Source of the DNA: Sphingomonadales bacterium
GTDB lineage: Bacteria; Pseudomonadota; Alphaproteobacteria; Sphingomonadales; Sphingomonadaceae
Reading direction: 5' to 3'
DNA length: 9,293 bases
Assembly: GCA_017302775.1 (NCBI GenBank)
Contig: JAFLDC010000078.1
Coordinates: 1-9,293, forward strand
Numbering within the stretch: position 1 is the stretch's first letter; the number at the start of each line of letters is the position of its first letter. The notes beneath the pieces are model-generated. The model saw nothing but the letters and a program-made list of their open reading frames with translations. It was not told the DNA's origin and did no database searches. Below are positions 1 to 7,796 of the stretch, piece after piece. The translations under genes were made by a program, and so were the position numbers.

Positions 1-1496
1 GCCTCCGCGAGTGCAGTCAGCGCTTCGTAAAGGCTCCACCCGGGCTGTGCGATCTTGCGCAGCTCGGCATCGCGCATCGCCAGCAAGGCATCGTAGAGTT
101 GTCCGATATGTTCGACGTGCGCTAGTTCGAGCGGCGCGGTTGAAGCGAGGTCGGCGACCAGCGCCAGCCCGATCGGTTGGCAAAGAAGCGCCTGCACTTT
201 GGTGCCGGCGCCTTGTATGCCAATGCCCAGCTTCACCAATACCGGCAGTACATCTTCGGTCCAACGCAGCGGGCCGATGTCGATCCGCAGTGCATGTGGC
301 GCACGCGCTATCGCCCGGAACTCATGGTCGTTGTCGAGGTCGAACGAGCGGCAGCTGAAGACGACTTGCAAGTCTGGATAGAACCGGGCCTGGCGAAGCA
401 TCCGCAGCAACACATTTCGAACCGTCGCCGTGCGCCCGGACATCTCGCTGACCGCGTCCGCCTGGTCGATGAAGAGTACTGCGCGTCCGGCCAATTGCTC
501 CAGAACCACGGCGGGGCTGTCGCTGACCTCGATCGTCGCCTCGCCAAGTGCGGCAAGCGAGGCGATGCCGCCGACCTGATCGATCCGGAATACCAGGGCA
601 GGGCGATCGGGATCGATCCGCTCCAAAGCCTTGCGGACAATCACCGACTTTCCCGACCCAGCCGGTCCGGCGAGGGCAATGACCTTCGGGCCTTCCGGAT
701 CGGCAAGCGCGGCGGTCAGCACATCGACTTCGGCGCGATCAATATCGAACAGTCCGGCGCCGATGGGCCGATAGCTCTCATCATAGTGACGATTGGCAGC
801 CTCGATCTTGCCCGGAATCGTCCGGTCAATTTCGTATTGCTTGAGGGCGATTGTCCGCGCGCTGAGCGTATCGAGCAGTTCCTGACGGCGCAGCGGCCGG
901 TTGAAGTTGTGGTCATCCTCGACCCACCGTCGCAGGGTATCGATAACGGCTTCGGGATCGGCGGCAAACCAGCGATCGCACTCCGCAACGATTGCCGCTC
1001 CGAGTTCGCGCTCGGGATAGGTGAAGAAGTCGCACCGCTCCAGCCAGGCAAAACTCTCCGATTTGTTCAGACCAAGGCTTTGCTGCAGCTTTTGCCATTC
1101 GGTCTGCTCGGCTTCGGACAACGTGCGCTCGAAAGCGTCGGGATTGGCGGCTGTCGGCTGTTTGTCCTTGAGCAGCCGGAGCGGTTTCGCGGGGTCAGTC
1201 GAGACGAAGACGCAGCTGTTACTCCCCGACGCAGCGAGTTTGCCCTGAAAAGTCGCCAGCACGCCTTCGCTCGCAAGCCGGGGAATCGTCCAACTGCTGC
1301 TGGTCTGACGCTTGGCCTGATGCCACTCCGTCCCATTGCCCCGTTCGACTGCGAATTCGACACCGATTCCGGCATCGCCGACCGGCTCGATCATGATCGC
1401 GTGAGCGCGGCCATCGATCAGCTCCAGCAAATGACGGATCAGCCACAGGGCCTCGTACCGATTGCCAACCTTGTCTGCGATTCCGCCGGGATGCAT
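1..1496 (-). CDS. Large nuclease-NTPase protein (PD-(D/E)xK N-terminus plus P-loop NTPase), Avs/STAND-like defence protein; 3' end cut by window edge
   Basis: An uninterrupted minus-strand frame runs from ATG at 1496 to the left edge (498 codons, no stop), so the C-terminus is missing. Residues 1-90 resemble the PD-(D/E)xK nuclease domain at the front of many NTPase defence proteins: an N-terminal GG (4-5), GNRYEALW around E15, a conserved GVEF (E47) and HQAKRQ (59-64, K62 the likely catalytic lysine). Residues 270-390 form a P-loop core: Walker A AGPAGSGKS (276-284), Walker B-like LFIDQAD (341-347, D344) and a following strand VVFSCRS (378-384). Known Avs and related STAND proteins pair such a nuclease with an NTPase and a long C-terminal sensor, which would lie left of this window. 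The start lies 3 bp after the abiEii stop, with AAGG about 8 nt upstream, so it is probably co-transcribed and coupled with abiE. It could instead be a Cap4-like or AAA-type nuclease. That it is a nuclease-NTPase is well supported; the Avs assignment is inference. Confidence 0.82.
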   Translation of the reverse strand, partial: MHPGGIADKVGNRYEALWLIRHLLELIDGRAHAIMIEPVGDAGIGVEFAVERGNGTEWHQAKRQTSSSWTIPRLASEGVLATFQGKLAASGSNSCVFVSTDPAKPLRLLKDKQPTAANPDAFERTLSEAEQTEWQKLQQSLGLNKSESFAWLERCDFFTYPERELGAAIVAECDRWFAADPEAVIDTLRRWVEDDHNFNRPLRRQELLDTLSARTIALKQYEIDRTIPGKIEAANRHYDESYRPIGAGLFDIDRAEVDVLTAALADPEGPKVIALAGPAGSGKSVIVRKALERIDPDRPALVFRIDQVGGIASLAALGEATIEVSDSPAVVLEQLAGRAVLFIDQADAVSEMSGRTATVRNVLLRMLRQARFYPDLQVVFSCRSFDLDNDHEFRAIARAPHALRIDIGPLRWTEDVLPVLVKLGIGIQGAGTKVQALLCQPIGLALVADLASTAPLELAHVEHIGQLYDALLAMRDAELRKIAQPGWSLYEALTALAE

Positions 1497-1499
1497 CGC

Positions 1500-2363
1500 T
1501 CAGGCCTTCATGAGGCGCGTGCAGCTGGGTTCGAGGTTCGCCCAGATCTCGTCGATAACGAGTACGAGTTCGACAGGCGGTAGCTCAAGTGATGCCATAT
1601 AAGCCTTCCAGCGCTGCTGGGCGGCAGCATCCTCTGCCATCGACGCGGAGAGGCCGACCGGGCGGTCATGCGGTATCGGTGTCTCCCGCCGCCTGAAGGT
1701 TGCTGAGATCGCGGCATCGAGCGCCGCTTCCTCGATTGGTAGCGATTTCGGCACGGCCCAGAGGTCGTAGAAATCCTTCATCCGTCCATTTGCCAGACCC
1801 AGCGCCACGACGGCCTGGAATTTCTCCGCAATCACCGCTTCGGGTGGATAGCTGCGGATGTTGGGCTGTTCCATGCCGAGCAGCGATGGATAGTCGATGT
1901 TTTGCGTGGCGTCGGCGAGCGCGTCGCCGAACCCGATGTCCAGCGTCACCGGGATACGGGTACGCTCGAGATAGGCTGAGGTCTTGAGGCGAATGCCGCC
2001 ATATTCCATTTCTTCGCGGATCGCGCTTGCGGCAATGGCATCAGTATCGAAGACGAGACCGTCTCCGACCTCGATTTTCATGATTTCGGCGAAAATCGCC
2101 TTGATCGCAGCCTCGTCGTCGGGGCCGAAACCGAGGAAATCGATGTCGCGGGTTTCGCGGTTGTCATGATCGAGCCACTGAGTGACGAGCATGCCGCCCT
2201 TGAGCACGTAATTCTCGCGATGAGGGGATTGCGACAGGCGAAAAAGCAGCCGCTCCAGCGCGAAACGCACGAGCAGCACATCGAACCCGCGGCCCTGCTG
2301 GCGCGCGAGATTGAGCAGGCGGTCTTTGACCGAAGCCGCCACGTTTTTGAGCTTCTCAGCCAT
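1500..2363 (-). CDS. abiEii: AbiEii-family nucleotidyltransferase toxin (type IV toxin-antitoxin)
   Basis: 287-aa protein of the AbiEii/AbiGii (DUF1814) family, the usual length. These are MNT-fold nucleotidyltransferases acting as the toxin of the AbiE abortive-infection/toxin-antitoxin system; cytoplasmic. Visible motifs: KGG at 55-57 followed by RETRDIDFLG at 69-78 (D73 and D75 as metal-binding acids), LDIGFGD around D142, AEKFQAVV around K181, and MKDFYDLW at 195-202, matching the four conserved motifs of the family. The C-terminal part (about 205-287) is helical and variable. Its ATG overlaps the abiEi stop by 8 bp (ATGGCTGA), a sign of translational coupling with the antitoxin. The stop lies 3 bp before the start of the nuclease-NTPase gene. 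All expected catalytic motifs are present, so it appears intact. Confidence 0.93.
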   Translation of the reverse strand: MAEKLKNVAASVKDRLLNLARQQGRGFDVLLVRFALERLLFRLSQSPHRENYVLKGGMLVTQWLDHDNRETRDIDFLGFGPDDEAAIKAIFAEIMKIEVGDGLVFDTDAIAASAIREEMEYGGIRLKTSAYLERTRIPVTLDIGFGDALADATQNIDYPSLLGMEQPNIRSYPPEAVIAEKFQAVVALGLANGRMKDFYDLWAVPKSLPIEEAALDAAISATFRRRETPIPHDRPVGLSASMAEDAAAQQRWKAYMASLELPPVELVLVIDEIWANLEPSCTRLMKA

Positions 2364-2976
2364 TGAAGGTCAGGGCCTCGAGATAGGGCCGCATGATTTT
2401 CCAGGCCCCCCCGGTTCGTGCTGCCTCGGCAATCTCGGAAGGACTTGCCTTGCGTTGCTCGACCGCTGTGCGCAGCCCTTCGACCGCCACCGAACGGTCT
2501 ACCAGACGGCCGTTACGGAACAGATCGGCAAGGGTTTTGGGCACCGAAAAGATCGCCACGTCAACTCCGGAGATCGTATGATGCTCGATGCCCTCAGCAA
2601 GATACTTGTCGGCAAAGCGCACAATCCGCACGGGCGGATAGCCCGGGACAGGTGACCAGTCGCTGGTGCCGATCGCGACCCAGGTCTTGCGAGGCATCTG
2701 GTCGGTCAGACCATGCCAGGCGAGTGCCGAAACCATCGCAATCACGCCCTTGGGAATGCGCTTCGCCACTTCGGCGAGAGTGAGGTTACCGTCGAACTCG
2801 GCATCGGGGCGTTGATAGAGCCCCCGGCCAATACGAACCAGTTCGCCATCGCCCAGCGCGCGCTGTATAGTAGCGCCAGCGATGCCGTGTTGGCGCAGAT
2901 CCTGCGCGCGCAGGATGGTCTGCCCTGCCAGTTGCGCGCGCAGCAGTTCGCGTTGGGTGCTCGCCTGCCTGACCAC
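2356..2976 (-). CDS. abiEi: AbiEi-family antitoxin / transcriptional regulator (type IV toxin-antitoxin)
   Basis: Antitoxin partner of AbiEii. In studied AbiE systems it is a DNA-binding protein that represses its own operon through an N-terminal winged helix and counteracts the toxin through its C-terminal part. With the GTG start at 2976 it is 206 aa. Residues about 8-55 form the winged helix: RELLRAQ, then LRAQDLRQHGI, a recognition-helix region, and the wing ending in VRIGRGLYQRP, a hallmark of the family. The C-terminal part (about 65-206) contains the typical KGVIAMVSALAWHGL and SVPKTLADLFR segments. The frame stays open to an ATG at 3057, but that start would put the coding region across the promoter and the inverted repeat and add 27 residues unlike the family, so GTG 2976 is preferred. 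GTG would lie within 1-2 nt of the predicted transcript start, so the message may be leaderless. Confidence 0.9.
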   Translation of the reverse strand: MVRQASTQRELLRAQLAGQTILRAQDLRQHGIAGATIQRALGDGELVRIGRGLYQRPDAEFDGNLTLAEVAKRIPKGVIAMVSALAWHGLTDQMPRKTWVAIGTSDWSPVPGYPPVRIVRFADKYLAEGIEHHTISGVDVAIFSVPKTLADLFRNGRLVDRSVAVEGLRTAVEQRKASPSEIAEAARTGGAWKIMRPYLEALTFNG

Positions 2977-3023
2977 GTTACAAATCCTATGACTGAAATC
3001 AATATTGTCAGAGGTTTTGTAAC
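2977..3023 (-). promoter_or_regulatory. abiE promoter and likely AbiEi operator (12-bp inverted repeat)
   Basis: On the plus strand GTTACAAATCCT (2977-2988) and AGGTTTTGTAAC (3012-3023) form an inverted repeat with 11 of 12 positions complementary and 23 bp between arms. On the minus strand a sigma70-like promoter sits inside it: -35 CTGACA (3011-3006), 16-bp spacer, -10 TAGGAT (2989-2984). The -10 lies in the start-proximal arm and the -35 abuts the other arm, so a protein bound to the arms would block RNA polymerase. AbiEi proteins are known to autorepress by binding inverted repeats in their promoter. The binding here is inference; the repeat is seen. Confidence 0.72.
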
Positions 3024-3141
3024 ACAAAGGACGATGCCTGGCCAGTTCATTCCACACCGCGATGCAATCGCCACGGGAATCTAACGGAAGCCGAAACCAA
3101 TTTCCGGACCAATCGACGTACGCACACTTGAACGAGATCGT
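3024..3141. other. Intergenic gap between the two minus-strand clusters
   Basis: No ORF with coding character and no clear rho-independent terminator were seen. A short direct repeat CCAAT flanks TTCCGGA near 3098-3114. The only other structure is the palindrome at the stop of the downstream-cluster gene, annotated separately. Confidence 0.5.
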
Positions 3142-3144
3142 TCA
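3129..3144. repeat. Perfect 16-bp palindrome overlapping a stop codon
   Basis: TGAACGAGATCGTTCA is complementary over both 7-bp arms with a 2-bp centre, and its right end is the TGA stop (minus strand, 3144-3142) of the unrecognised gene. No T-run follows on either strand, so a classical terminator is unlikely. It could be a weak hairpin protecting the mRNA end, or chance. Confidence 0.4.
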
Positions 3145-3768
3145 CCGCAATTTCTTGAACGCCCACAGATGCGTGTAAATTTCGGCCAGTTCCGCTGCCC
3201 GCTCCGGTGAGAAACCCGCCTTTGTCAGACGGGACCTAAACAGATAATCGGGGATTTCCTGCCGGCTTTCGCGAACCAGAGCATAGAAGCGCTGCCAGTC
3301 GTAGAAGTGGAGCGACGACGTGTTCGCGAGCATGACAAAGCGCTTGAACAACGTCGTCGTGCGCTCACTCATCGCAAAGGCCTTGCTCTGGCGCACACCT
3401 ACCCGAAGGCGATAGCGCGCGCCGAACTGGCGATTGTACTGCCTGAGCAGGTCGCCAACCAAACTCTGAGCGGCCTCGACATAAATCGCCCTGGTCGGCG
3501 GATCCGGCGACCATCGTGCAGCCTGCAGCTCGACATTCACCCGACCTGGCCGGTTTTCGTAGGCGATCAGTTGGAAGCCATGATCCTCGTGAATGCACTC
3601 GACGGTCAGTCGGAAGTTCACAATGTCGGGTCGGTGTTGTCCGGGATGAATCCTGTGTCGATCAATCTTGAATTTGCCGGAGTTCTTGCCGAGCTCGGCC
3701 ATCTGCTCCAGGAATGCCGTCGCTTCCCCCCGCACGCCGATGTCTATGTCGGGCAGCACTTCAACCAT
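3142..3768 (-). CDS. Unrecognised ~208-aa protein, last gene of the DUF2726 cluster
   Basis: I do not recognise this protein. The frame is open from 4062, but everything before 3866 is a shadow of the neighbouring DUF2726 gene. A strong Shine-Dalgarno GGAGG (3786-3782) lies 7 nt before TTG 3774 and 13 nt before ATG 3768; I chose the ATG, but TTG 3774 has better spacing. TTG 3864, next to the upstream stop, is possible and would add a segment PFQIGG. From the ATG the protein begins VEVLPDIDIG, with a DID triplet at about residues 8-10. A mixed strand/helix middle follows, then a helical C-terminus rich in Arg and aromatic residues (HFYDWQRFYALV, IYTHLWAFKKLR). No signal peptide or membrane segment is visible. 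It lies downstream of a DUF2726 nuclease on the same strand, which suggests a functional link. If translated from TTG 3864, the GG followed 11-12 residues later by DID recalls nucleotidyltransferases, but no further motif confirms it. Confidence 0.7.
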   Translation of the reverse strand: MVEVLPDIDIGVRGEATAFLEQMAELGKNSGKFKIDRHRIHPGQHRPDIVNFRLTVECIHEDHGFQLIAYENRPGRVNVELQAARWSPDPPTRAIYVEAAQSLVGDLLRQYNRQFGARYRLRVGVRQSKAFAMSERTTTLFKRFVMLANTSSLHFYDWQRFYALVRESRQEIPDYLFRSRLTKAGFSPERAAELAEIYTHLWAFKKLR

Positions 3769-3865
3769 GAGCAAACACACGCCTCCAATCTGAAACGGCA
3801 ACTGCACCCGCTGGAGACCGTTCGAGGACCTCGCGCCAGGGCCTTGGTCTAGCGCCAAATGCAAA

Positions 3866-4768
3866 TCAGCGCATCTTAATGCCCGACATGGGATCCCACA
3901 CGAAGTCGAGCGGAGACTCGCCCATGCTGTGCGAAGGGTGCGGATCGTATCGGGTCCGGAACCGGTCGAAGACTCTTCTGAATTCGCTTGAAGTCGACGG
4001 CCGCAATTGCCCGCGCTGGTACGCCGCCAACCGCTCGCCAAGCTCACACCCGTCAATTTCACTCAGGAGATCGTAGTGCGGGAAATCGAGGTCCTGTCTG
4101 CGAACCGCGATAACAGACCAGAGAACTTGTCCATTAAACCACAGGTATGAGAGCCGGCCCGCCGTGTCCTCACCATCACGCCCGTCAAACGATGCCCATC
4201 CGAATTTCGCATCGGGCCCCAGCTTCTTGTCAAAGGCATGAATCGCGCGGGTGGCTGGCGCGGACAGCCAATACGGAAAGGATGTTTCCCCAATCGATAC
4301 GAAGCTCGCCGGATCGAAGGGCTCGTCCAATGGAATCTGGCCGCTCATCTGGGCCGACTCGAAATGCTTCGCCAGTTCTGTAACTTCGACAATCCAGCGT
4401 AGCACAGTCATGCCGCGATAAAGCTTGGTGACATGCCGATCGTTGATCCGCAACATTCCCAGACCCGCTTCGCGGCATAGGTCGTTCTTGATACGGTCGC
4501 GTTCCATCTGCCGGGCATCGGCATGCATCGGTCCATCATATTCAACCACCATCAGCGGCTGGAATTCAGGGTCGAGAATGACAAAGTCAAAATGGGCACG
4601 CGTGAAATAGTCGAACGCGCTCTGGGTCAGGTGCGTCCTGCCCTTGTCGATCACATCCGACATTCGAGTCTTGGAAAGCACTCGCAGGCCATTGTCGTCA
4701 GCGATGCGGTCCAACTCCCGGTAGACGACCTCCTCTGACCGATTGATAACGCGCTGGACGACCTTCAT
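3866..4768 (-). CDS. DUF2726-domain protein, putative PD-(D/E)xK-type nuclease
   Basis: 300-aa soluble protein. Residues about 10-125 match DUF2726, a restriction-endonuclease-like fold found alone or attached to helicases and topoisomerase-type zinc domains. The visible pattern is SEEVVYREL (11-19, E13), RMSDVI (35-40), FDYFTRAHFDFVILDP (52-67, D61), VVEYDGPMH (74-82, E76 and D78), then ERDRIKNDLCREAGLGMLRI (89-108), with K94 in the position usual for the family. D61, E76 and nearby residues are the likely metal site. Residues 126-300 are a C-terminal domain I do not recognise, with aromatic-rich segments YLWFNGQVLWSVI (208-220). The likely start is ATG 4768 with a weak GAG about 9 nt upstream. 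It sits 78 bp after the cysteine-rich protein gene, and that gap is an in-frame 24-codon ORF. Its last codons overlap the open frame of the next gene. The fold is well supported; nuclease activity and target are inference. Confidence 0.85.
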   Translation of the reverse strand: MKVVQRVINRSEEVVYRELDRIADDNGLRVLSKTRMSDVIDKGRTHLTQSAFDYFTRAHFDFVILDPEFQPLMVVEYDGPMHADARQMERDRIKNDLCREAGLGMLRINDRHVTKLYRGMTVLRWIVEVTELAKHFESAQMSGQIPLDEPFDPASFVSIGETSFPYWLSAPATRAIHAFDKKLGPDAKFGWASFDGRDGEDTAGRLSYLWFNGQVLWSVIAVRRQDLDFPHYDLLSEIDGCELGERLAAYQRGQLRPSTSSEFRRVFDRFRTRYDPHPSHSMGESPLDFVWDPMSGIKMR

Positions 4769-4771
4769 CGA

Positions 4772-4846
4772 TCAAAGCTCATCCATGTCAGTTGGACCAG
4801 CGATCTCATTTTCGGCCCGCTGTGGATTGAGGTTCTGCCCTACCAT
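4772..4846 (-). CDS. Possible 24-aa small ORF between the Cys-rich gene and the DUF2726 gene
   Basis: ATG at 4846 follows the TGA of the 377-aa gene with no gap. The ORF ends in TGA at 4774-4772, three bases before the DUF2726 ATG and in the same frame. The peptide begins MVGQNLNPQRAENE and ends TDMDEL; it is acidic and soluble. The abutting stop/start arrangement allows translational coupling by reinitiation. The ribosome site is poor (GAGG about 12 nt upstream). It could be a small subunit, a coupling device, or a former N-terminal extension of the DUF2726 protein cut by a stop. Chance cannot be excluded at this length. Confidence 0.3.
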   Translation of the reverse strand: MVGQNLNPQRAENEIAGPTDMDEL

Positions 4847-5980
4847 TCAGACAATAGTCCTCGCCATCATGGCGCTGATCAGTTCGGATCTTTCCAGGGG
4901 CGCGCCCTGATAAATCACCTCGCCGAAAGTATCGTCCACAATTCGGCCCTCCTTACCTTGGACGTGGACATGGATACCAAACTCCTGCGGGCGCTCTGCA
5001 GTCCAGACGATTGCCGGTGTCGATGCCCAGACGGCAAAATCGTAGCCCGCAAAGTCGTCTAGATTCAGCGTCCGATCAGGCGTCTCGTACTTCAATGTGC
5101 GGGCGAAGCTATCGTGCAGAGGCTTCAGCGGAGTCGAAATGATCGGCTCTTTGCTCCAGGTGCTGTCCCGGCCACAATTTCCGCAAAAGTGCTTGCGGTG
5201 GGGCGTATCTGCAAAATCGGCCAGATCGAGATGAGGGTATCCGCAAGTGCTGCAACTTATGCAGCTCATTTCCTGGTTGGCTTCCATCGCGCGTACGAAA
5301 TCAAATGCGGCCGGCGGAGTGATGTTGACGCGCGTTATTTCCTGATTGTGAAAGAGCCCAAGGCCGCTGTTGTACAACGTCGAGATCGCGCTAAAATCGC
5401 GATCGATTGTTTTCTTTCCCGCGACATCGTCACGCACATGCACATGGATCTTTGGCGGGCGCGGCTTGATCGGCAAAGTCGAGAGTGCGGCGGGCATTGA
5501 GCACCAAATTCCCACTTCAGCATGCTGTGTGACATTCACCGTCAGTGGCGAGACGACGTAGTTCATCGTTTGCTGATAGTTCGCACAGCGCATCTCGCCG
5601 TGGATTTCCAGCGCTTCGATGTCCGCCTTGATGCCCCAATGCGTCTGATGGGTCCTGCACCACAATCGCTCCGCCCCGTGACGAAATTTCCCTGCATGGG
5701 TAAAATCGCATGGCAACTGAGCATCGCTGCCGACCTTCGCCGGGAAGTGACCCAGTAGCGCGGGCGATGTGACTGCAATATTCCCCAAGGTTCGGCCGTA
5801 GGACCAACAAATCGCAGCCTCTTCCTTCAAACCACCTTCAGCGTCCTTGTCGACTGGTTGCTCGTCGCAAATCTTCGACAAATAGACCTTCTTTGCCGCT
5901 TGCCCCTCCGCATTCTCCCACTGACACTTCCAAAGCTCGACTTTGCCATTTGACTGGTTGATGCGGCGTTCGATAAACAT
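4847..5980 (-). CDS. Unrecognised Cys/His-rich protein with two metal-binding clusters and an internal duplication
   Basis: 377 aa, soluble, no signal peptide or membrane segment. I do not recognise the family. Residues 91-114 contain C91, H95, C108, H111 and H114 (CRTHQTHWG at 108-116). A second cluster, C243-x2-C246 and C266-x2-C269, is a zinc ribbon with histidines nearby (H250, H264) and an extra C240. Two copies of a unit are visible: residues about 155-200 (IWCSMPA, then IHVHV at 178-182, then GKKTIDRDF) and about 314-358 (VWASTPA, then IHVHV at 336-340, then GRIVDDTF), flanking the zinc ribbon. The His-Val-His pairs could bind metal. ATG 5980 has AGG about 8 nt upstream. It is the first gene of a minus-strand cluster leading to the DUF2726 putative nuclease, so a partner or recognition role in that system is plausible but inferred. 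The frame is intact. Confidence 0.82.
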   Translation of the reverse strand: MFIERRINQSNGKVELWKCQWENAEGQAAKKVYLSKICDEQPVDKDAEGGLKEEAAICWSYGRTLGNIAVTSPALLGHFPAKVGSDAQLPCDFTHAGKFRHGAERLWCRTHQTHWGIKADIEALEIHGEMRCANYQQTMNYVVSPLTVNVTQHAEVGIWCSMPAALSTLPIKPRPPKIHVHVRDDVAGKKTIDRDFSAISTLYNSGLGLFHNQEITRVNITPPAAFDFVRAMEANQEMSCISCSTCGYPHLDLADFADTPHRKHFCGNCGRDSTWSKEPIISTPLKPLHDSFARTLKYETPDRTLNLDDFAGYDFAVWASTPAIVWTAERPQEFGIHVHVQGKEGRIVDDTFGEVIYQGAPLERSELISAMMARTIV

Positions 5981-6022
5981 TGCCCATACCTACACGATTG
6001 TCCGCACCTGCATCCAGAGGCA

Positions 6023-6108: not shown

Positions 6109-6179
6109 GCGGGGACACCCCGCAACGCCCCGAGATTCGGAGCGGGGCTGGTGACGCGCTCTTCCCGCAGGCCCTGCGG
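6109..6179. repeat. Three consecutive perfect GC-rich hairpins
   Basis: GCGGGG/CCCCGC (6109-6114 with 6118-6123, loop ACA), GCCCCG/CGGGGC (6127-6132 with 6143-6148), and CCGCAG/CTGCGG (6165-6170 with 6174-6179, loop GCC). All three arms pair perfectly. Such a cluster could be part of a transfer or replication origin, a structured RNA, or a protein-binding region; the sequence alone does not decide. Confidence 0.5.
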
Positions 6180-6251: not shown

Positions 6252-6297
6252 CGTGCAGGCTTGGAAAGCCGACAGGCCCCGGCTTTCAGCCTGCACG
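6252..6297. repeat. Long imperfect hairpin, 18 paired bases
   Basis: CGTGCAGGCT (6252-6261) pairs with AGCCTGCACG (6288-6297), and inside it GAAAGCCG (6264-6271) pairs with CGGCTTTC (6280-6287). Only TG (6262-6263) is bulged, and the 8-nt loop is ACAGGCCC. It is too long and stable to be likely by chance. No T-run follows in either direction, so it is not a classical terminator. Candidates are an extragenic palindrome, an origin/transfer element, or a structured RNA. Confidence 0.65.
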
Positions 6298-6397
6298 AGC
6301 AAGTGAGCGATTGCCGCCTCCTTTCAGGGTGCGGCTTTCTGTTCGGGCAACTTCGCTGGTCGTTCGCGCCACATCGGCGATGAACGGCCGAAGATGA

Positions 6398-6472
6398 GAG
6401 TGAGAGGGTGGCGGGCTTCGCCGTGACGGGATGAGGGTCGAGAGAGAGGCTCCCGGCCGCCCGTCATGGAGA
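6398..6472 (+). promoter_or_regulatory. Structured leader, copy 1 (before the DUF932 gene)
   Basis: The element starts with GAGTGAGAGGG (6398-6408). Fifteen bases later TGACGGG (6424-6430) pairs perfectly with CCCGTCA (6460-6466). Within this, GGTCG (6436-6440) can pair with CGGCC (6454-6458) around a loop starting AGAGAGAG. A small hairpin GGCG/CGCC (6410-6413 with 6419-6422) precedes it. The outer stem runs straight into TGGAGA, the Shine-Dalgarno of the gene, so folding could control ribosome access. An alternative pairing CGGGA/TCCCG (6427-6431 with 6451-6455) competes with the outer stem. A second copy lies at 7721-7796. Confidence 0.7.
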
Positions 6473-6479
6473 TTTTCCC

Positions 6480-7673
6480 ATGAACATGCAGGTTCTCGAA
6501 GCGCGGCGCGATATGAGCGGCGGGTATATGGTCGATGTTTCGCGCGGCTCCCGCGTCGGCCGGGTTTCGTCGGAGTGGTTCTCTCGGCCCGATGATCAGC
6601 GGTTTCTTTCGCTGAACGAGCTCGCGAGCTCAGTGCGTGGGCGTTCCGATCGCAGCCGGACCCGTGTGGTCGAAACTGCGCTCATTCACGTCGAGGCAAA
6701 CCGCAACGATCCGGAACGCCTGGCGCTGATGCTGCCCGGCGCTGATGCGCCGGTACACCCCACCCACTGGAGCTTCGGCCAACTGGCGAGTCAAGTCGGC
6801 GCACCCGCTGCCTATCTGCGCCAGCTTCCTGCACCGCTTGCCGCGATCAACCTGCAGTACGGACTGACCGCGAACCGGGCCGAGCAGATCAAGACCTTGG
6901 AAACCGAGAACGGTCGGCTCGAACTGCGCGCCGTAACTGGCCCCGACTATGGTCGGATTTACGATCACGAACTGGTCGAGGCCGTGCAGAAGATCGCCGG
7001 CAACGGCACCGGCGACACCCGCTGGAAAGTGCCCGGCGTGCTCGACTGGTCGACCGGTGTTTACAACCCGATGGTCGATGTCTCGAAGGATACGACCACT
7101 CTCTATGCGTCCGACCGCGATGTGTTCCTGTTCCTGGTCGATGATCTCAATCCGATCGAAGCGGGACGCCTGCCTGATGGCTCGCCCGATCTCTACTTCC
7201 GGGGCTTCTACTGCTGGAACTCCGAGGTCGGCGCAAAGACGCTCGGCATGGCGAGCTTCTATCTGCGCGCAGTCTGCCAGAACCGGAACCTGTGGGGCGT
7301 CGAGGACTTCGAGGAAATCTCGATCCGCCACAGCAAATACGCCGCCAACCGGTTCGCCCATGAAGCGACACCCGCCCTGCTGAACTTCGCCAATTCTTCC
7401 CCGCAGCCGTTCATCAACGGTATCAAGACCGCGCGCGAGCGCATCGTTGCCCGCACCGACGAGGAACGCGGCGACTTCCTGCGTCATCGCGGCTTCTCGA
7501 AGGCCGAGATCGGCAAGATCATCGAGACTGTGCTGGCCGAGGAAGGCCGCCCGCCCGAATCGATCTTCGATTTCGTTCAGGGGATCACTGCACTCGCCCG
7601 CGGCAAGCCGCACCAGGATGCCCGGCTCGACATGGAGGGCAAAGCGAAGAAGCTGCTCGACCGGGTTCATTGA
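6480..7673 (+). CDS. DUF932 domain protein (phage/plasmid-like protein)
   Basis: 397-aa soluble protein of the DUF932 family, common on plasmids, phages and integrative elements; molecular function not established. The DUF932 region covers about residues 95-330: HWSFGQLASQVGAPAAYLRQL (96-116), LRAVTGPDYGRIYDHELVEA (149-168), SDRDVFLFLVDD (211-222), and the typical YFRGFYCWNSEVGAKTLGM (239-257) followed by YLRAVCQNRNLWG (261-273). The C-terminus (330-397) is helical. The start at 6480 has GGAG 8 nt upstream; a second ATG two codons later has poorer spacing. A structured leader precedes it, and the ParB-like gene follows 129 bp downstream with a second copy of that leader, so the two are probably regulated together. 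It appears intact. Confidence 0.9.
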   Translation: MNMQVLEARRDMSGGYMVDVSRGSRVGRVSSEWFSRPDDQRFLSLNELASSVRGRSDRSRTRVVETALIHVEANRNDPERLALMLPGADAPVHPTHWSFGQLASQVGAPAAYLRQLPAPLAAINLQYGLTANRAEQIKTLETENGRLELRAVTGPDYGRIYDHELVEAVQKIAGNGTGDTRWKVPGVLDWSTGVYNPMVDVSKDTTTLYASDRDVFLFLVDDLNPIEAGRLPDGSPDLYFRGFYCWNSEVGAKTLGMASFYLRAVCQNRNLWGVEDFEEISIRHSKYAANRFAHEATPALLNFANSSPQPFINGIKTARERIVARTDEERGDFLRHRGFSKAEIGKIIETVLAEEGRPPESIFDFVQGITALARGKPHQDARLDMEGKAKKLLDRVH

Positions 7674-7720
7674 GTCCGAACAGTCGGGTGTGTTTTCCAC
7701 GCTTAGCGCTGCCTTCTCCA

Positions 7721-7796
7721 GAGTGAGAGGGCGGCGCTTCGCTTCGTGACGGGTCGGGGCCTGAGAGAGAGTCTTTCAGGCGGCCCGTCATGGAGA
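7721..7796 (+). promoter_or_regulatory. Structured leader, copy 2 (before the ParB-like gene)
   Basis: Same layout as the element at 6398-6472: GAGTGAGAGGG (7721-7731), 15 bases, TGACGGG (7747-7753) pairing with CCCGTCA (7784-7790), then TGGAGA as Shine-Dalgarno. The inner stem here is GCCTGA (7759-7764) with TCAGGC (7776-7781). Its sequence differs from copy 1 while pairing is kept and the loop keeps GAGAGAGAG (7763-7771). This compensatory pattern argues for a selected RNA fold rather than simple duplication. Confidence 0.7.

Follow-up and report, generated by a model that had tools for sequence, protein, structure and literature searches.

What one short leader might be doing in front of two adjacent mobile-element genes is the question raised by a 9,293-nt stretch of Sphingomonadales bacterium DNA (contig JAFLDC010000078.1 of assembly GCA_017302775.1; hereafter, the window), in which one copy precedes a DUF932-like gene and a second precedes a ParB-like gene. 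Sequence comparison across related loci establishes a conserved RNA structure, the position of the Shine-Dalgarno sequence in it, and the set of genes that follow. We consider it probable that both leaders are copies of a single cis-acting mRNA element, one that masks the initiation of translation in plasmid-establishment genes. It is likely that the leader controls translation initiation, and we infer that translation is repressed.

The first-pass annotation of this DNA had noted that the two leaders share GAGTGAGAGGG (6398-6408 and 7721-7731), an equal spacing of 15 nt before TGACGGG (6424-6430 and 7747-7753), and CCCGTCATGGAGA (6460-6472 and 7784-7796) with the Shine-Dalgarno sequence directly after the stem, and that the inner helices differ in letters yet pair (GGTCG/CGGCC in copy 1, GCCTGA/TCAGGC in copy 2), all of which we found to be so. 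Additionally, each inner helix continues inward as far as its loop (AGAGG or AGAGT), copy 1 having a single A.C mismatch, and the outer stem (P1) reaches further out than had been seen, an upstream CC or TC pairing with the GG of the Shine-Dalgarno sequence. From 5′ to 3′, each leader is built of AGAGTGAGAGGG, 15 nt, TGACGGG, a short linker, a hairpin (P2) and CCCGTCATGGAG, with the ATG located 8 nt (copy 1, 6480) or 7 nt (copy 2, 7803) past the Shine-Dalgarno sequence. A gapped pattern of the leader occurred at exactly two sites in the window, against 0.07 expected, and none of 200 shuffles contained two. The parts are given below; the scores come from R1, a covariance model built from 81 leaders, and are not independent, as both leaders of the window and many of the other loci searched also fed the model.

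6397 to 6472, plus strand: leader 1 as a whole, before the DUF932-like gene (cmsearch with R1, 90.4 bits, E 7.7e-22)
6397 to 6406, plus strand: AGAG-NN-AGAG element of leader 1, of the AGAGNNAGAG type, predicted to be single-stranded
6421 to 6430, plus strand: 5′ strand of P1 in leader 1, CCGTGACGGG, partner 6460-6469
6438 to 6456, plus strand: P2 hairpin of leader 1, TCGAGAG / CTCCCGG with one A.C mismatch and loop AGAGG at 6445-6449, lengthened by GG 6436-6437 and CC 6457-6458
6460 to 6469, plus strand: 3′ strand of P1 in leader 1, CCCGTCATGG, continuing into the Shine-Dalgarno sequence
6468 to 6471, plus strand: Shine-Dalgarno sequence GGAG serving the DUF932-like gene, its GG paired in P1
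7720 to 7796, plus strand: leader 2 as a whole, before the ParB-like gene (cmsearch with R1, 79.0 bits, E 1.1e-18)
7720 to 7729, plus strand: AGAG-NN-AGAG element of leader 2
7742 to 7753, plus strand: 5′ strand of P1 in leader 2, CTTCGTGACGGG, including the anti-Shine-Dalgarno CTTC, partner 7784-7795 in the minimum-energy fold
7761 to 7779, plus strand: P2 hairpin of leader 2, CTGAGAG / CTTTCAG with loop AGAGT at 7768-7772, lengthened by GC 7759-7760 and GC 7780-7781
7784 to 7795, plus strand: 3′ strand of P1 in leader 2 plus the Shine-Dalgarno sequence GGAG at 7792-7795

The consensus, 86 positions long, comprises a single-stranded AGAG-NN-AGAG, P1 with its 3′ side running into GGAG, and the inner P2 with an AGAGG or AGAGU loop. 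We analyzed covariation in two alignments. The first, A2, held 81 distinct leaders, that is, the two from the window and 79 of 80 kept at a 95% similarity limit, drawn from 135 distinct pattern matches at 153 places with one minus-strand leader dropped. The second, A5, held 99 chosen leaders (45 rows of A2, 36 genome census or other model matches, including those at L139 and L018, and 18 from annotated plasmids) and leaves out a diverged variant found before helicase and antirestriction genes, treated below. In A5, 96.2% of the cells were paired (96.5% in P1), while structures slid along the alignment reached at most 48.1%. Double changes occurred in 13 of 17 pairs (6 of 10 in P1 and all 7 in P2), a count reached by one of 500 shuffles, and no shuffle of 500 equalled either the 122 double-change cells (38.4 ± 7.4 when shuffled) or the 37 further pair types (28.3 when shuffled). 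The exchanges in P1 were A-U to G-C in four leaders and G-C to A-U in five and six leaders at two pairs, and those in P2 were G-C to C-G and C-G to G-C. Pairing was similarly complete in A2 (96.4% of cells; slid structures at most 47.9%), with 77 double-change cells against 31.6 ± 4.7 when shuffled, and unguided RNAalifold recovered both helices from this alignment. Kinship among sequences can beat shuffles without any structure; we nevertheless read the covariation as structure because the slid controls fail and the otherwise near-invariant P1 shows paired exchanges, which are hard to explain in another way. Selection on RNA structure, as the first-pass annotation had proposed from two copies, is therefore borne out by many further homologous leaders with compensatory changes in both helices, and, on this comparative evidence, appears near certain.

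The same alignments bear on which strand and which molecule is selected. G-U pairs are tolerated in a sense RNA, in template-strand DNA a hairpin would give the opposite pattern, and a duplex operator would give neither. On the sense strand of A5, mismatches of the G-U type outnumbered those of the A-C type by 270 to 28 (152 to 7 in P1 and 118 to 21 in P2), and in A2 the corresponding ratios were 24 to 0 in P1, 127 to 2 in the P1 extension, and 90 to 20 in the seven P2 pairs, where 19 of the 20 A-C mismatches fell at a single pair. The G-U excess therefore points to selection on sense-strand RNA. The half-sites TGACGGG and CCCGTCA were 27-34 nt apart among the 80 leaders measured, with one at 44 nt. 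The distance from P1 to the ATG fell in all three reading frames (30, 24 and 19 of 73 leaders), and 69 of these 73 leaders had a gap of 7-9 nt between GGAG and ATG. Because of the G-U excess, the variable half-site spacing, the mixed frames and the steady GGAG-ATG gap, the sequences speak for a structured 5′ mRNA element, rather than an operator or a peptide.

How the fold would meet the ribosome was examined by thermodynamic prediction. Copy 2 folded alone forms the proposed structure (z -3.41, a value matched by none of 200 shuffles); its P1 lengthens to CUUCGUGACGGG / CCCGUCAUGGAG, which brings the whole Shine-Dalgarno sequence into pairing. The mean probability of the consensus pairs was 0.74 for copy 1, 0.99 for copy 2 and 0.88 over the 99 leaders of A5, 93 of which exceeded 0.5. 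The mean unpaired probability of GGAG was 0.146 in these 99 leaders versus 0.462 when the upstream part was dinucleotide-shuffled; the Mann-Whitney p of about 1e-28 is a guide only, as the rows are related. The structure thus overlaps the ribosome-binding site, P1 pairing with the GG of GGAG, as in a leader that controls translation. Conversely, the purine motifs are predicted to be open: the 5′ AGAG element, which reads exactly AGAGNNAGAG in 80 of 99 leaders, has a mean unpaired probability of 0.83, and the P2 loop, which reads AGAGG in 65 and AGAGT in 13 of 99, is open at 0.91.

Three additional devices were considered and rejected. A conserved upstream hairpin (P0), which would serve as an anti-anti-Shine-Dalgarno, forms in some leaders (GGCG..CGCC, CGGA..TCCG) and is weak or absent in others. 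For a switch in which the 5′ AGAG element pairs with the 3′ strand of P2, the partner varies while the element is constant. For a transcription attenuator, the rows of A5, read by eye, have no consistent U-run behind the stem.

Several observations weigh against the view that the leaders form one element masking initiation. In A2, two of five covariation measures were not clearly above shuffles: the count of pairs with double changes was equalled by 44 of 500, and that of further pair types by 379 of 500. Pairing at the outer end of P1 fails in some leaders, with columns 26 and 82 unpaired in 16 of 81. Copy 1 alone prefers a rival minimum-energy fold (z -1.79; 12 of 200 shuffles as good), and the case for a shared structure consequently rests on comparison. 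In 56 of 99 leaders, a second short hairpin (CATGG..CCATG type) could also form over the Shine-Dalgarno sequence, against 17.7 expected with shuffled spacers and 39.1 with 5′ triplets swapped. The leader is not obligatory for DUF932, being absent before four more distant plasmid genes of this type (L197-L200), and in L198-L200 the ParB gene upstream of the leaderless DUF932 gene has one. Finally, we found no candidate regulator, and no gene-content correlation was run to nominate one.

Read-through shields are known for some transposase genes, and it is possible, if unlikely, that the leader is a device of this kind. The fold would block transcripts derived from upstream, and a native promoter inside the leader would give transcripts that lack the 5′ strand of P1, with no regulator involved. 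Sequestration of the Shine-Dalgarno sequence fits such a shield, as does the compactness of leaders that lie close behind the preceding gene, but the conserved 5′ AGAGNNAGAG element and the P2 loop are left unexplained. We rate lower an element for mRNA processing or stability, in which AGAG would be read by a host nuclease or chaperone and initiation would be unaffected: it accommodates the exposed purine motifs and the strong stem with which each cistron opens, but not the running of that stem into GGAG in nearly every leader. The P1 core letters are highly conserved and a ParB-like protein is encoded alongside, as one would expect if TGACGGG/CCCGTCA were palindromic half-sites of a double-stranded DNA operator for a ParB-like or KorB-like protein. 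This is nevertheless very improbable, given that the half-site spacing varies, the letters between the half-sites covary as those of a hairpin, the two strands of P1 change together, as detailed above, and the position relative to the Shine-Dalgarno sequence is fixed.

Equally improbable is a Frpo-like single-stranded DNA promoter that folds in the incoming T-strand and drives early leading-region transcription. In the passages of Samuel et al. 2024 (PMC11541004) that concern them, Frpo or ssi promoters are hairpins before the establishment and anti-defence genes of conjugative elements; the gene kinds behind the leader are those of the leading regions described there, and a hairpin likewise stands directly before each gene. 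However, Frpo as portrayed there is single-stranded DNA with -35 and -10 elements, whereas the leader is under selection as sense RNA and its hairpin covers the Shine-Dalgarno sequence, on which it ends without leaving promoter room before the gene. A template hairpin would tolerate G.T, read as A.C on the sense strand, and the pairing expected of it was not found in A5, where the excess was of G-U. The chance that the leader is instead a conserved coding stretch, either a leader peptide or an N-terminal extension, is close to nil: an open frame exists ahead of the ParB-like start (open reading frame from 7746), but the distances from P1 to the ATG occupy all three frames and the changes follow pairing.

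Copies beyond the window, which the first-pass annotation had suggested seeking, were found widely in alphaproteobacterial plasmids and chromosomes with R1. A scan of species genomes for the DUF932-like protein gave at least 588 confirmed stretches, and in the best 80 loci, which were kept, R1 placed a leader directly before the DUF932-like gene in all 80 and a second leader 1.3-2.9 kb downstream, again in all 80, with a ParB-like gene after it where the start was read. Among 52 viral-contig loci, the 17 longer ones were searched (L081-L084, L086, L095, L097, L098, L103, L104, L107, L110, L116, L117, L122, L124, L130), and leaders were present only in L081, the relative of 85% identity; the other 16 (L082 at 71% and the rest at 43-52% identity) had no leader at E<=1. 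In genome tallies at E<=0.001, each of which counts its centre genome and was run with stricter filters that lose weak matches, R1 matched 28 of 385 genomes in the class and 25 of 299 in the phylum of a Xanthobacter genome (G001), 17 of 147 in the order of a Sphingomonas genome (G002), and 2 of 274 in the class of a Thauera metagenome-assembled genome (G657), a count of two that includes G657. Several genomes had more than one copy, up to ten. The Thauera assembly (L047), betaproteobacterial by name, carries the leader family on one contig (C1) and four radC RNAs on four others, reflecting either cross-class transfer or mixed binning.

The genes served by the leader were more varied than the two in the window. 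The census loci (L160-L193) gave 54 matches at E<=1, of which the downstream frames of 38 were examined; the other 16 were 11 strong copies near an examined one and five weak matches (E 0.35-0.83). Of these 38 independent census matches, 19 stood before ParB-like, eight before DUF932-like and seven before ArdC-type genes. The ArdC-type calls came from Pfam in L160 (ArdcN, E 1.6e-20), from BLAST to L160 in five cases, and by eye from the N-terminus in L192, where BLAST of another frame found nothing. In L160 (579-1503, minus strand), the N-terminal domain of ArdC shares one open frame with a TraG P-loop domain, possibly a fusion after deletion. Behind the leader of L185 lies, by eye, a truncated DUF932-like start; second matches in L181 and L182 (31-33 bits) have small unassigned open reading frames downstream, and the L186 match (27.8 bits), which is without a fitting open reading frame, is probably false. 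Among weak whole-plasmid matches, L139 has an ArdC-like gene downstream (BLAST 31%, E 2e-10), and L141 and L142 gave no leader-like fit.

In 13 annotated plasmid stretches, chosen because each holds a DUF932 relative, P1 with a GAGAG-type insert occurred at 22 of 334 open-frame GGAG-ATG sites versus 1, 1 and 0 in three shuffles. A mirror control with CTCTC for GAGAG gave four matches and is a poor control, since P2 contains CTCTC. The 22 sites included those before a PAPS-reductase-family gene (L198) and two hypotheticals (L194 13837, L201 13333). By eye, a shorter leader stands in the corresponding place before a gene annotated RadC (L196 13884), and looser leaders stand before DUF6878 genes (L196, L201).

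The diverged variant, weak in R1 (E 0.015-0.56), was located before a strawberry-notch helicase gene (PF13872/PF13871, L050), before an antirestriction ArdB/KlcA gene (PF03230, E 5e-36, L063), and before similar starts elsewhere. Variant leaders lie near 15000-15680 in L034 and L063, at 15383 in L050, at 11424 in L197 and at 11420 in L199, before helicase or antirestriction genes. By eye, their 3′ CGCUCUC/CCUCUCU stretch complements both the loop and the 5′ AGAG element, and its CGCUCUC form could pair with either, the loop partner being GAGAGCG; a bistable switch in this variant is only an idea. In the variant set (A4, 19 sequences), RNAalifold predicted 13 pairs, two of which had double changes.

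The two genes behind the leaders of the window are as follows.

6480 to 7673, plus strand: DUF932-like gene, an open reading frame of 397 aa
7803 to 9293, plus strand: ParB-like gene, running off the window, with weak ParB_N and HTH_ParB matches below Pfam cutoffs

The DUF932-like protein had no Pfam or NCBIfam match at 1e-3. Many of its plasmid relatives are annotated DUF932 and others hypothetical, and a close relative in L049 scored 16.8 bits against DUF932 (PF06067; E 0.0061), under the cutoff of 23. The ParB-like protein matched PRTRC_parB at E 1.7e-12, below the NCBIfam cutoff. Of the 80 loci, 67 were measurable, and in 63 of these leader 2 begins 44-120 nt past the DUF932 stop codon; the arrangement is consistent with the two genes sharing one mRNA, on which each would have its own leader. 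On pSR7, the gene order is DUF932, ParB, strawberry notch, DUF2493, DUF736, WGR, traG-traD-traC and traA; that of pSymA (strain ml47) is similar, with no ParB gene listed in the stretch.

Defence-type genes often lie upstream of the DUF932-like gene or its module, in what looks like a defence-gene hotspot beside the establishment module. These are AbiEi/AbiEii and a STAND-type NTPase in the window (1-6000), a CBASS phospholipase in L133, methyltransferase/TrlF in L134, and AbiEi/AbiEii in L158, L198 and L200. Between the preceding gene and leader 1 lies a long inverted repeat (6253-6296, GTGCAGGCT..GAAAGCCG / CGGCTTTC..AGCCTGCAC), whose exact arms were in none of 240 other loci and whose region aligns at 87% to a plasmid of Sphingobium YC-XJ3. 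The element CCCCGCAACGCC (6118-6129) recurs in 82 of 241 sequences. Of the 58 genome loci with an upstream copy, 31 have it within 60 nt of a leader stem, and in the window it lies about 300 nt upstream. A ProQ/FinO-family RNA-binding gene is near the module in one of the 13 annotated plasmid stretches (L200 6715-7221, from a Rhizobium hidalgonense plasmid).

Whether the leader matches a described RNA family had been left open by the first-pass annotation. Nothing in Rfam 15 reached threshold at the leaders, with the window searched at E<=5 and leader 1 alone at E<=10, nor was any match over gathering found in L158, L194 and L198. The best sub-threshold match, the snoRNA sR53 (19.7 bits against a cutoff of 49; E 0.5 for the window and 0.006 for leader 1 alone), is one of sequence only and is taken as chance. 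Open PMC full text, which holds subscription papers for the most part outside its scope as it does supplements, gave no description of the leader among the matches listed. On comparative grounds, the leader is a real, widespread RNA family new to Rfam.

The nearest described kinds are the radC RNA and the STAXI motif. The radC RNA is said to precede integrase, methyltransferase and antirestriction genes. In the table of Weinberg et al. 2010 (PMC2864571), this RNA (RF01754) is a putative cis-regulatory family of Proteobacteria. Like the leader, it is placed before genes, and that of L230 in the Thauera assembly precedes, by eye, a RadC-like open reading frame. The two nevertheless share neither sequence nor fold: the radC RNA model has 149 positions and several hairpins, the leader 86 positions and one stem plus a hairpin. 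The radC consensus motifs AUGCCCAGG and CUUCAAGG were in none of the 99 rows of A5 or the 81 of A2, while the genuine radC RNAs L230-L233 had AUGCCCAGG in four of four and CUUCAAGG in two (L230, L233). With stricter filters, RF01754 exceeded its cutoff in none of 16 records or genomes and matched no leader position; weak matches at E<=1 occurred in 9 of the 16, much as in 6 of 14 control genomes, and as a positive control the four genuine radC RNAs in the Thauera genome scored 91-137 bits.

The STAXI motif (RF01728), too, is a structured element linked to DNA-handling genes, being found near single-strand-binding, topoisomerase, antirestriction and integrase genes, and it differs in its repeated pseudoknots, frequent UUCG loops and occurrence in Enterobacteriales, as far as the corresponding part of PMC2864571 describes it. 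It was not among the Rfam matches to the window or to leader 1. A portion of PMC5512222 covers ParB-like and ArdC domains within proteins of mobile elements.

The targets of CsrA/RsmE offer a further comparison. These carry a repeated purine motif in loops and single strands and a masked Shine-Dalgarno sequence. The leader resembles them in its repeated short purine motif, one copy of which is in a hairpin loop, and in its covered ribosome-binding site; its motif is AGAG, whereas that of CsrA/RsmE is GGA.

We therefore picture masking by the leader as follows. The transcript would fold into P1, of 10-12 pairs, with the P2 hairpin inside it, and the outer end of P1 would lock the GGAG that lies 7-9 nt before the start codon, so that initiation would stay low as long as P1 is closed. 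The 5′ single strand would leave two AGAG motifs exposed and the P2 loop a third, and these three would be the likely recognition sites for a trans factor (a protein, a small RNA or the 30S subunit) that shifts the balance. With a separate leader for each gene of the establishment module (DUF932, ParB-like, ArdC), translation could be set jointly, for instance on entry into a new host, and the variant form would add ArdB/KlcA and the strawberry-notch helicase to the genes so set. Since at least four gene types have this leader in front of them, and two more have its diverged form, a single regulator for these genes is plausible. That a single trans factor reads all of the leaders is our conjecture, held at somewhat less than even odds, and the timing of translation at entry is likewise conjectured. 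More doubtful still is the full scheme, in which alphaproteobacterial conjugative elements would have a post-transcriptional regulon whose one trans factor, encoded by the plasmid or by the host, reads the three AGAG motifs and frees translation of anti-restriction and DNA-handling genes jointly at entry.

Early expression in other conjugative elements has been linked to single-stranded-DNA promoters, in a part of PMC11541004 that does not mention alphaproteobacteria, and the open PMC literature had no counterpart for these plasmids among the matches listed. As a sequence tag, the leader lets a covariance model find establishment genes, including uncharacterised ones, on plasmids and chromosomes. 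It also offers a testable handle on how alphaproteobacterial conjugative plasmids and chromosomal elements could time their anti-restriction and establishment genes. If true, a regulon read through AGAG would be to RNA what the single-stranded promoters in the leading regions of enterobacterial elements are to DNA.

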